64,000 nucleotides of DNA from Shewanella psychrotolerans. GTDB lineage: Bacteria; Pseudomonadota; Gammaproteobacteria; Enterobacterales; Shewanellaceae. The DNA lies in the NCBI RefSeq assembly GCF_019457595.1, contig NZ_CP080419.1, positions 620,001 through 684,000 on the forward strand, in the 5' to 3' direction. Within the stretch, counting starts at the first letter, position 1; the number at the start of each line of letters is the position of its first letter. A program made the translations under genes and the position numbers. The notes under the pieces are model-generated. The model was not told the DNA's origin. It saw nothing but the letters and a program-made list of their open reading frames with translations, and did not search any database. Below are positions 36,401-38,660 of the stretch, piece by piece.

Positions 36401-36423
36401 GCTGCGACAGATTTTGTCGTAGG
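36401..36423. promoter_or_regulatory. Operator candidate O1 upstream of WYL gene
   Basis: GCTGCGAC, seven bases, GTCGTAGG is an inverted repeat (6 of 8 pairs) 42 bases before the WYL start codon. It matches 19 of 23 positions with O2 at 37462. The two sites being upstream of both genes of the pair makes it a likely binding site for the regulator itself. Confidence 0.6.
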
Positions 36424-36465
36424 TGAGTAGTATGCTGTTGATATAGCTCATCAAGGGAACTCTGA

Positions 36466-37494
36466 ATGCAAACCAATATCCAGCGTCAGCTTAAGATGCT
36501 TGAGCTGATCCCTAGGCATCCCAGACGGATCACGGCCAATAGGATCACCGAGCACCTCAAAGATTTGAACTTCGATGTGGGGCTGCGCACTGTGCAGCGC
36601 GAACTCAAGGCCATGTATGAGATGGGGCTGTTCGGCCTGGAGATGGACGACAGGTGCAAGCCCTTCGGTTGGTCGGTCGCCGCCTGTTGGCAGGGGATGA
36701 ACCTTACCCTGATGGACCGTCATGTGGCCTTGGCGTTTTTCACGTTGAAACATAACGCTCGTCAACTGTTGCCGCCCGATAGCCTCAAACAGCTGGCGCC
36801 CTATTTCGATCGCGCCGATCAGGTGCTGGGCAGCGACTCGGACAGATCTTGGCTCTACTGGGCTTGTCGCGTGGCTCAGTTGCCTGAGCCTCTGCCCTTG
36901 ATGCTTATCGAGCAAGATCCACAGGTGCTGGCGACGGTGCAGGAGGCCTTGCTGCAAAAGCGTCAGATAGCCTGTCAGCTTAAGCGTTTTATCAAGGGAG
37001 AGGTGCATTGGGTGGACTATTCACCGATAAATCTGCAAGGGATTAAGATTAGCGATGGCGTGGCCTTGCTGGTGTTTACCATCGGCAGCTTTCACACCAA
37101 GCTCTACGCCCGGCCTATAGATTCTGTTCGTCATGTACGCCTGCTCGACACTCCTGTGATGACTCGCGAAAACTTTGCGGATGCGTTGCACGACGGGGTG
37201 CGTCAGCCAGAGTGGATCAATATCGATCTGCTATTTTCACCCTCGGCTAACTTTATTCTCAGGCAGGCTAAGCTCGCCGCCGATCAACATATCGAGCGTC
37301 TTGATGATGGCCGTTATCGAGTGCAGGCTAAAGTGAAGGATACTCCCAGGCTCAGGGCCTTTCTGTGGGAGATGGCCGATAGCGTCGAAGTGGTGGCGCC
37401 GCCCAAGCTCAGGGCGCATTTTAGCCGCTTGGCAATCAAGCTAAATCAACAATATCAAACTGCTGCGACGGAGTTTGTCGCAGCTGCGGGGTAA
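36466..37494 (+). CDS. WYL-domain transcriptional regulator (YafY-like)
   Basis: A 342-residue DNA-binding protein. The N-terminal winged helix (residues 1-60, IQRQLKMLELIPRHPRRITA with RTVQRELKAMYEMGLFGLEM) is followed by a WYL core (about 140-220, RQIACQLKRFIKGEVHWVDY then YSPINLQGIKISDGVALLVF) and a WCX C-terminal extension (from ~250). WYL proteins sense ligands, often nucleic-acid related, and control DNA-damage or phage-defence genes. AAGGGA lies 8 bases before the ATG. It is 32 bases upstream of an ftsZ-like gene on the same strand, and operator candidates flank it. The gene looks GC-richer than the backbone. Confidence 0.85.
   Translation: MQTNIQRQLKMLELIPRHPRRITANRITEHLKDLNFDVGLRTVQRELKAMYEMGLFGLEMDDRCKPFGWSVAACWQGMNLTLMDRHVALAFFTLKHNARQLLPPDSLKQLAPYFDRADQVLGSDSDRSWLYWACRVAQLPEPLPLMLIEQDPQVLATVQEALLQKRQIACQLKRFIKGEVHWVDYSPINLQGIKISDGVALLVFTIGSFHTKLYARPIDSVRHVRLLDTPVMTRENFADALHDGVRQPEWINIDLLFSPSANFILRQAKLAADQHIERLDDGRYRVQAKVKDTPRLRAFLWEMADSVEVVAPPKLRAHFSRLAIKLNQQYQTAATEFVAAAG
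37462..37484. promoter_or_regulatory. Operator candidate O2 between WYL gene end and ftsZ-like gene
   Basis: GCTGCGAC, GGAGTTT, GTCGCAGC is a perfect 8-bp inverted repeat that overlaps the last codons of the WYL gene and ends 42 bases before the ftsZ-like start codon. The same spacing separates O1 from the WYL start. It may drive or repress a separate transcript for the downstream gene. Confidence 0.6.
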
Positions 37495-37526
37495 GCTAGG
37501 TCGAGTCATCAAATGGAGGCTTTACC

Positions 37527-38660
37527 ATGTTCGATCTCATTCCCCAAGGCGGTTATCTGCCGAAGATTTTGGTTGTTGGTGTAGGCGGTTGTGGCTGCAA
37601 TACCATTAATCAACTCAGTCAGGCCGAGCTCAGTGACGCGGTGCAGCTGGTGGCGGTCAACACAGATGCTCAGTCGCTGGCCAGTGCCCAGTGTACGAGT
37701 CGATTACAGATAGGCGATCATAGCACCCGCGGATTAGGCGCAGGCGCCGACCCAGATAAAGGCTTGGCCGCCGCGCAGGAGTCGGAAAAAGAGATCGGCG
37801 AGCTGGTGGGCGCTGCCGACTTAGTATTTATTACCGGCGGCATGGGCGGCGGTACGGGCACTGGGGCCATGCCTTTTATCGCGGCAGTGGTGAAGCGGCT
37901 TGGTAAGCCTCTGGTGGCTGTGGTTACCACTCCCTTTGACTTCGAGGGTGATCAGCGTAATCGTGTCGCCCAGCAAGGCGTCGATAGGTTGTCAGCTCAG
38001 GCCAATAGTTTGATAGTGCTGCCCAATGATAGGTTGGTGGCCATGTTGGATGAGAAGGTCACCCTAGTGAATGCTTTTAGTCAGAGCAATCGAGTGCTGC
38101 AGGATGTATTGCAGGGGCTGACGGTCACCATCAGCCAATCTGGGCTTATCAATATCGATCTCAACGACTTCGTCACCGTGGTGAGCCATCAAGGGCGGGC
38201 GGCCATGAGCGTTGCAAGACAGCAGGCGGGCGATGCCTTGGCCGACACGGTTGCCCATGCGCTTAATCATCCGCTACTGGAAGAGATGGATCTGTCCCGT
38301 GCCAAAGGCGCTATCGTTAGCGTGGTGGCAACCGAGGCGATTGAGCTAAACCAATACCATGCCATCGGCGCCTTGGTGCAGCAACATCTCGACAGGCAGG
38401 CACAGGTGATCATAGGCCTGTCGATTGTGCCCGAGCTTGAGTGTGAGCTTGAGTTGATGGTTATCGCCACAGGTATACCGGCAAAGGAGGAGCGCCTCAC
38501 TCTTGGGGAGCGTTTCGATAATGCCGAACTGGTTAACATCACCGACTTTCTCAAGGAGAAGGAAGAGGCGCAAGAGCAGGGCGAGCGGCCCTATGAGATG
38601 CGTCCTGATATATATGACACTCCGACCTTTATTTGCACTAGCTCACTAAAAAATAGATGA
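37527..38660 (+). CDS. FtsZ-like tubulin-family GTPase (probable second FtsZ)
   Basis: A 377-residue protein with the whole FtsZ core. It has an N-terminal nucleotide site ILVVGVGGCGCNTIN, the tubulin signature GGMGGGTGTGAMP (GGGTGTG at 107-113), TTPFDFEG, and the T7 synergy loop NIDLND (209-214) with the catalytic aspartates, so GTPase and polymerising ability look intact. After the core only ~40 residues remain, ending DIYDTPTFI (361-369), a weak echo of the FtsZ tail motif DIPAFL, without the long linker or a basic ending. The true division FtsZ would normally be in the dcw cluster, absent here. GGAGG precedes the ATG. It is probably controlled by the adjacent WYL regulator. Confidence 0.85.
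   Translation: MFDLIPQGGYLPKILVVGVGGCGCNTINQLSQAELSDAVQLVAVNTDAQSLASAQCTSRLQIGDHSTRGLGAGADPDKGLAAAQESEKEIGELVGAADLVFITGGMGGGTGTGAMPFIAAVVKRLGKPLVAVVTTPFDFEGDQRNRVAQQGVDRLSAQANSLIVLPNDRLVAMLDEKVTLVNAFSQSNRVLQDVLQGLTVTISQSGLINIDLNDFVTVVSHQGRAAMSVARQQAGDALADTVAHALNHPLLEEMDLSRAKGAIVSVVATEAIELNQYHAIGALVQQHLDRQAQVIIGLSIVPELECELELMVIATGIPAKEERLTLGERFDNAELVNITDFLKEKEEAQEQGERPYEMRPDIYDTPTFICTSSLKNR

Follow-up and report, generated by a model that had tools for sequence, protein, structure and literature searches.

A WYL-family regulator gene paired with a second FtsZ gene and two matched, predicted operator-promoters in Shewanella psychrotolerans and related bacteria

In the general view, a single FtsZ serves division in most bacteria, and arrest of division under stress is achieved via small inhibitors, such as SulA and DidA. 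A different arrangement is encoded in a stretch of 64,000 nucleotides (hereafter the window) of the Shewanella psychrotolerans genome (4.37 Mb, single contig; NZ_CP080419.1, positions 620,001 to 684,000 of the forward strand), where a gene for a WYL-family regulator is followed by a gene for a second FtsZ (ftsZ2), and each of the two genes is preceded by a copy of the same inverted repeat.

Several described systems, for which we draw on excerpts of the cited papers, resemble parts of this locus. The mycobacterial damage promoter recognized by PafBC has the consensus tTGTCRgtg-8 nt-TannnT, the TGTCR-N11-TANNNT spacing of which is identical to the layout found here (PMC5656591), and its -26 motif stands in for the -35 contact (PMC11804915). 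PafBC is, however, a heterodimer of two WYL proteins which serves many repair genes from LexA/RecA-independent promoters, whereas the module described here comprises one WYL protein, a full palindrome and two predicted local targets. The DriD-DidA system of Caulobacter crescentus likewise joins a WYL regulator, with winged helix-turn-helix and WCX domains, to a target that affects division (PMC12340889, PMC4211646), and the DriD site covers the -35, its distance to a poor -10 being constant (PMC12340889, a preprint). DidA is an FtsN-binding inhibitor rather than an FtsZ, and DriD has several scattered targets and no self-regulation, while here the regulator adjoins its predicted target and near-matches to the operator elsewhere in the genome do not exceed the control. 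SiwR of Mycobacterium smegmatis acts on its own, as a homodimeric WYL activator that has its 19-bp palindrome upstream of the -10, controls adjacent genes and is linked to genotoxic stress (PMC10693628), but the genes that it targets belong to the DinB superfamily, lie on the opposite strand and include no FtsZ. BrxR and CapW, which are WYL-WCX homodimers, also bind to palindromes that precede operons of their own or neighbouring ones (PMC9122601, PMC9122588). The CapW boxes, however, overlap the -10 (PMC9122588), R-BOX1 of BrxR lies downstream of the -10 (PMC9122601), and both regulators are tied to defence systems, whereas the partner here is an FtsZ with no PADLOC match. A transcription factor controls a second FtsZ in the haloarchaeal CdrS-ftsZ2 system (PMC7439475), although CdrS is an archaeal ribbon-helix-helix regulator of an unrelated family. 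Other FtsZ-like families have been described as well, one of them in vWA operons (PMC2875224).

No description of a WYL-FtsZ pair was found in the open-licence literature, among the matches listed, and the remark in an earlier sequence-only reading of the window that it knew of no described system of this kind thus held up within that literature. Excerpts of PMC4211646, PMC12340889, PMC7159879, PMC7641849, PMC5512222 and PMC7824862, all of which name both WYL and FtsZ, describe no such pair; for the terms searched, a paper on the FtsZ of Shewanella benthica (PMC11362102) does not refer to a second FtsZ. The WYL-FtsZ pair is real and would be a variant of WYL division control that is undescribed in the literature searched.

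The regulator and ftsZ2 open reading frames (ORFs; 36466-37494 and 37527-38660, respectively) are separated by 32 bases. Repeat 1 (36401-36423; GCTGCGACAGATTTTGTCGTAGG) ends 42 bases 5′ of the regulator ATG and repeat 2 (37462-37484; GCTGCGACGGAGTTTGTCGCAGC) ends 42 bases 5′ of the ftsZ2 ATG. The two are identical at 19 of 23 positions, and repeat 2 falls within the final codons of the WYL gene. The sequence-only reading had reported this geometry (23 bp, 42-base distances, 19/23 match and overlap with coding sequence) exactly, and the gap that it gave between the genes agrees with the ORF list. The features of the locus are as follows:

36401-36423, + strand: operator 1, the 23-bp inverted repeat before the WYL gene, with its core at 36403-36421 (sequence, pattern search and conservation upstream of WYL homologues)
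36431-36436, + strand: TATGCT (TANNNT), predicted -10 element of the WYL promoter, the spacing of which from operator 1 is fixed (TANNNT at this offset in 79/82 operators)
36466-37494, + strand: WYL-family regulator gene, 342 amino acids, with a helix-turn-helix (HTH), a diverged WYL region and WCX (ORF, Pfam, PADLOC and homologues)
37462-37484, + strand: operator 2 before ftsZ2, in the 3′ end of the WYL gene, with its core at 37464-37482 (the only exact TGCGAC-N7-GTCGCA of the genome)
37492-37497, + strand: predicted -10 element TAAGCT (TANNNT) of the ftsZ2 promoter, overlapping the WYL stop codon (operator scoring)
37514-37519, + strand: likely ribosome-binding site TGGAGG of ftsZ2 (read from the sequence)
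37527-38660, + strand: ftsZ2, encoding the second FtsZ, 377 amino acids (Tubulin, FtsZ_C, TIGR00065 and PDB FtsZ chains)
37578-37601, + strand: first glycine box GVGGCGCN with a family-diagnostic Cys, canonical form GVGGGGGN (alignment)
37845-37865, + strand: tubulin signature GGGTGTG for GTP binding (alignment)
38151-38168, + strand: T7-loop catalytic motif NIDLND, of the form N-x-D-x-x-D (alignment)
38616-38636, + strand: C-terminal peptide DTPTFIC, which corresponds to DIPAFLR, the anchor peptide of canonical FtsZ, and has Cys in place of the usual Arg (alignment)

The palindrome core (12 bases, TGCGAC-N7-GTCGCA), with at most one mismatch, occurs twice in the window, which exceeds chance, compared to a mean of 0.11 (standard deviation 0.35) in 100 shuffles, one of which reached two matches. 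Five places in the whole genome match at this level versus ten for a reversed control pattern; the sole exact match is situated before ftsZ2 and another lies before the WYL gene, and these two are the only ones among the five that combine the right spacing with a clear downstream gene. A further match (L173; G000:C1:2196423-2196441) is a one-mismatch operator with a correctly spaced TATAAT, 93 bases past a umuC-like ORF and facing no obvious gene, and could be due to chance, while the remaining two lie within ORFs. Across loci, the operator consensus is TGCGwCA-N5-TGTCGCA, which recurs even where the regulators are approximately 35% identical.

Operators were scored across loci by taking the best site in each short upstream stretch, without use of downstream sequence, at a threshold of at least 9/12 and with the upstream sequences seen beforehand. 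Eighty-two sites reached the threshold, and in 79 of these a TANNNT hexamer starts nine bases after the 19-bp core, the next best offset accounting for 23/82. After removal of near-copies, TANNNT is present at this offset in 26/29 sites and at other offsets in at most 6/29. An 83rd site (L079, where the locus begins at a contig end) also fits when scored. As a measure of scale, 160-base draws from the same loci, with the real sites included, reach 9/12 in 764 of 5000 cases, 146 of them with TANNNT. The resulting layout is TGTCG-N11-TANNNT, with the 23-bp operator ending 7 bases before TANNNT. The hexamer 15 to 19 bases upstream of the -10 gives a mean best match to TTGACA of 2.45/6, while 2000 shuffles averaged 2.85 and did at least as well in 99.6% of cases, so that no -35 is apparent, and no conserved extended -10 was found at these promoters. 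The occurrence of TANNNT at one spacing after 79/82 operators, as in PafBC promoters and with no -35, is newly seen here. In a diverged Shewanella clade, operator 2 sits after the WYL stop codon, and its conservation there is therefore not due to coding.

Orthologs were sought in 152 Shewanellaceae genomes, with a full-length regulator of at least 53% identity and FtsZ2 at E ≤ 1e-75 as criteria. Both genes are intact in 32/152 genomes, the same 32 for each gene, and the coordinates place them adjacent and on one strand in all 32 carriers; no genome among the 152 has just one intact gene of the pair. Both regulator and ftsZ2 are broken in one genome (G003), while in S. morhuae (G006, locus L119) the regulator persists as remnants in two pieces and ftsZ2 is gone. 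The L119 flanks are those of the intact S. glacialipiscicola pair (L112), and loss of one gene in S. morhuae goes with decay of the other. Seven further Shewanellaceae genomes contain weak matches only, to other WYL proteins (<30% identical). Among 23 loci (the window and 22 named Shewanella loci), at least eight flanking contexts are represented, with the pair kept together. Two irregular FtsZ matches were also observed in the family. The only FtsZ matches of one genome are two abutting pieces (G054:C1:1557772-1558688), possibly the result of a frameshift or an assembly error. A second genome, with no regulator match, has an extra FtsZ-like match in a 554-amino acid frame which is 27% identical to FtsZ2 (G084:C1:967454-968383).

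Beyond Shewanella, relatives of the regulator profile (E ≤ 1e-30) are present in 54/394 genomes of the order. Tandem pairs of Shewanella make up 22 of the 28 named loci, while the regulator and an FtsZ-like gene are convergent in two Thalassotalea, Alteromonas hispanica and Colwellia hornerae, and a Colwellia metagenome-assembled genome (L120) and S. morhuae have no FtsZ-like gene. An operator-like site precedes both genes in all six of the Alteromonas/Colwellia-like convergent pairs (including Thalassotalea), Paraferrimonas carries both proteins (P0031, P0074), and in genus g29 the regulator is followed by ftsZ2, in the same order as in the window, in 12/12 loci. An FtsZ profile run on the same 394 genomes, for which the counts are of the matches listed and further second copies may exist, gave at least 22 second FtsZ genes beside the regulator, as well as one approximately 1.4 kb from a related WYL gene (G193).

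The product of the ORF at 37527-38660 matches the Pfam domains Tubulin (146.5 bits) and FtsZ_C (63.1 bits), exceeds the cut-off of the TIGR00065 equivalog (308.1 versus 295.2 bits) and matches PDB FtsZ chains. It is a second FtsZ because the genome holds a separate canonical ftsZ (C1:429181), the product of which is 38% identical to FtsZ2; identity to the FtsZ proteins of the genus is approximately 38-40%. Motifs were counted in 52 different FtsZ2 relatives, with the window copy outside this set, and compared to 16 canonical FtsZ proteins. The GTP-binding signature GGGTG[TS]G and the catalytic N-x-D-x-x-D motif are present in 52/52 relatives, and a C-terminal P-x-x-x-R in 51/52 (49 identified by script and two by eye), the G193 protein being the sole exception. 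The first glycine box carries a Cys in 52/52 FtsZ2 relatives and a Gly in 16/16 canonical proteins. From the retained GTPase motifs and anchor-like peptide, we predict that FtsZ2 is active as a GTPase and anchored, rather than a dead poison.

In a tree of 75 rows (68 different), the 16 canonical and 59 FtsZ2 rows are split by one branch with a support of 100/100; several branches are long, no root is assigned, and the window copy, itself not a row, is represented by its 80%-identical S. aquimarina relative. Both the tree and the glycine box (GVGGCG versus GVGGGG) indicate that FtsZ2 does not group with the canonical division FtsZ lineage of the order. The ratios of non-synonymous to synonymous substitution rates are 0.07-0.22 for FtsZ2 in 10/11 comparisons, the remaining one being 0.44 with few changes, and 0.02-0.11 for the WYL protein (10/11 comparisons computable), values which, for these comparisons, place both genes under purifying selection. 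The identities of WYL and FtsZ2 proteins correlate over 253 pairs (r = 0.93), as common descent alone could also yield.

The regulator matches Pfam WCX (40.8 bits; cut-off 23.9), while the N-terminal HTH_12 match (19.4 bits) is slightly under its cut-off of 21.4. A PADLOC WYL model matches residues 148-321 (E 3e-12) whereas Pfam WYL (PF13280) does not match, on the strength of which we name the protein a WYL-family, diverged regulator. Six of its relatives also lack a PF13280 match up to E 0.1, while a more distant protein (P0087) has one. A sequence search of PDB with the single regulator protein returned nothing up to E = 1; with the regulator profile, WYL proteins, including DriD (8tp8; E 0.002), were matched weakly in their C-terminal part, on the WCX side.

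The predicted position of the operator and the lack of a good -35 correspond to the layout of the PafBC, DriD and SiwR activators, and the operator, unlike those of CapW and BrxR, lies neither on nor downstream of the -10-like element. The fixed -10 spacing and the absent -35 thus favor activation over BrxR/CapW-type repression, and the regulator probably acts as an activator of the PafBC/DriD/SiwR kind, although promoter geometry favors an activator and does not prove one. We slightly favor, overall, a self-contained two-gene module in which the WYL-family regulator would activate itself and the second FtsZ from two operator-promoters, in response to DNA damage or a similar stress. Within this proposal, it appears reasonably likely that FtsZ2 takes an active part in the ring, while we put the chance that the signal is damage or a nucleic acid at about even.

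The sequence-only reading had proposed such a module, in which a single regulator is joined to a matched pair of operators, and had named absence of the pairing from other genomes, or of the operator before homologous pairs, as grounds for rejection. Its interpretation is supported in part. The pairing recurs in the 32 Shewanellaceae genomes and in genera beyond, homologous pairs have kept the operator upstream, including those of the diverged Shewanella clade, and linkage and operator conservation support the module. No link to phage emerged, with neither a WYL relative in viral contigs nor a PADLOC match for FtsZ2. The proposed regulation, in which the WYL protein governs its own gene and ftsZ2, is refined by the promoter geometry, which points to activation rather than repression.

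In the proposed mechanism, a dimer of the regulator would bind its signal, by analogy single-stranded DNA (ssDNA) or another nucleic acid. The bound dimer would sit over the -35 region and, in the manner of PafBC and DriD, bring the housekeeping RNA polymerase to promoters that are otherwise weak, and the resulting positive-feedback switch would allow for the fast production of FtsZ2. FtsZ2 would bind and hydrolyse GTP, its C-terminal peptide would let the divisome anchors hold it at the membrane, and it would join the Z-ring beside the ordinary FtsZ, such that constriction is delayed or remodelled until the stress ends. A more specific version, which we advance tentatively and consider doubtful, is that of an SOS-independent checkpoint, where by analogy the WYL protein would sense ssDNA or damage- or phage-derived nucleic acid, rescue the promoters in PafBC style, here in Gammaproteobacteria, to turn on itself and FtsZ2, and FtsZ2 would invade the Z-ring and hold or re-route division.

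Several observations weigh against an activated, damage-responsive module. The regulator has no match to PF13280 up to E = 1, has lost the Tyr-Leu of the WYL motif (VALL versus, for example, VLYL in PF13280-positive relatives), and the Arg found in an HR[IM]-like motif of those relatives is unaligned in its family. Given this diverged WYL region, ssDNA sensing may not apply. The window copy of FtsZ2 has a Cys in place of the conserved Arg of the C-terminal peptide (DTPTFIC), and its anchor may be weaker. SulA is encoded in 148/152 Shewanellaceae genomes and in 31/32 pair carriers, the exception being a 52% complete assembly, and the module therefore fills no obvious gap and would be an additional layer; replacement of SulA by the module is likewise unsupported.

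The remaining points of this kind concern the operators and the partnership itself. Three operator sites lack TANNNT (CATGCT, CATGCT and CATTCT), and each of them precedes the ftsZ2 of an Alteromonas-like genome. In at least five cases (G332, G480, G198, G275 and G245), a second FtsZ gene of the order has no such WYL gene within 6 kb, and the operator is absent from the 160 bases upstream of these five (best 6-8/12). One regulator (G488) is without an operator (best score 7/12). In genus g29, ftsZ2 lacks an operator of its own in 12/12 loci (best 7-9/12), the three scores of 9 falling inside the regulator coding end and without TANNNT. Genus g38 (L083, L085-L092, L168) has kept the WYL gene and operator with no adjacent ftsZ2: no FtsZ is found within 1.5 kb in 9/9 loci or, for L168, within 6 kb, with a single FtsZ listed for each genome. 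The g38 regulator may be without a former partner or have acquired different targets. Between the WYL gene and ftsZ2, 11/11 of the g29 loci printed (L072-L078, L080-L082, L084) carry a terminator-like hairpin in place of an operator (GGGCTGA...TCAGCCC with Ts after it), and read-through control is a possibility.

The regulator could instead be an autorepressor of the BrxR/CapW kind, which would occupy both promoters over the -35 region until a ligand releases it and frees ftsZ2. Such a reading would account for the palindrome, the autoregulation and the presence of two boxes, which resemble R-BOX1 and R-BOX2 of BrxR (PMC9122601), an operator over the -35 region could block the polymerase, and PADLOC WYL models match the regulator. 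We nonetheless consider it unlikely, as the operator ends 7 bases before the -10-like element whereas the CapW boxes overlap the -10 and R-BOX1 is downstream of it. Moreover, mere blocking would not need a site-to-(-10) distance that is fixed in 79/82 sites, and a bare promoter with neither a -35 hexamer nor a conserved extended -10 should be weak.

Two further explanations concern the role of FtsZ2 rather than its control. It could serve as a decoy or back-up when FtsZ is attacked by phage inhibitors, SulA or toxins, allowing division to resume or soaking up the inhibitor instead of acting as a brake. The retained catalytic motifs and anchor-like peptide would be expected of a working replacement, while its identity to the genus FtsZ is only about 38-40%, the T7 protein Gp0.4 provides an instance of a phage protein that binds FtsZ (PMC13423816), and BrxR-family WYL regulators often adjoin defence systems (PMC9122601). 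The flanking genes, however, vary between lineages (no defence-gene scan of the flanks was made), FtsZ2 has no PADLOC match and the viral contigs hold no WYL relative, and we regard this role as rather unlikely. FtsZ2 may, alternatively, be an ordinary redundant paralogue under mild control by growth conditions, such as temperature or pressure, with the WYL protein sensing a metabolite and not damage. Diverged WYL pocket residues, a SulA that is already there and the many pair carriers that we take to be marine species would be in keeping with this. The two genes, however, are lost together and have moved together, along with a dedicated operator, which suggests a switch and not a housekeeping function, as does the PafBC-like promoter spacing, and a redundant paralogue seems quite improbable.

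Other origins and control circuits were considered for the pair. A phage or plasmid origin is unsupported: no WYL relative was present in viral contigs (37 stretches matched the pattern, none of which was confirmed), and all 23 FtsZ matches in phage records and all 71 on plasmids fall below 60% identity, the best of the latter (37-38%) being on large Pseudoalteromonas replicons. These replicons carry further FtsZ proteins, 37-38% identical to FtsZ2 in H1-H4 and 35% in H8, and a similar FtsZ copy on G245:C2 (L156) has no such operator and no WYL neighbor. LexA control is not indicated, as the consensus CTGT-N8-ACAG, with one mismatch, occurs 15 times in the window compared to 22.4 expected, and not in the promoter regions of the pair. 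Near-matches to the palindrome in 13 genomes number 115 versus 141 for the reversed control, and while 6/13 genomes are slightly above their own control, near-matches are below control overall and a large regulon is therefore unsupported.

The promoter layout shared with PafBC spans phyla, as well as regulators that are approximately 35% identical within the family. Since the two predicted targets are known and adjacent, the mode of action of single-gene WYL activators is directly testable at this locus. If a second FtsZ is conserved and under regulation of its own, some bacteria would exchange or mix the very polymer of the ring, and the module, if the proposal is true, would provide the cell with an inducible means to alter its division. 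If the checkpoint version were true, it would represent the first dedicated stress-inducible, tubulin-family override of the bacterial Z-ring.

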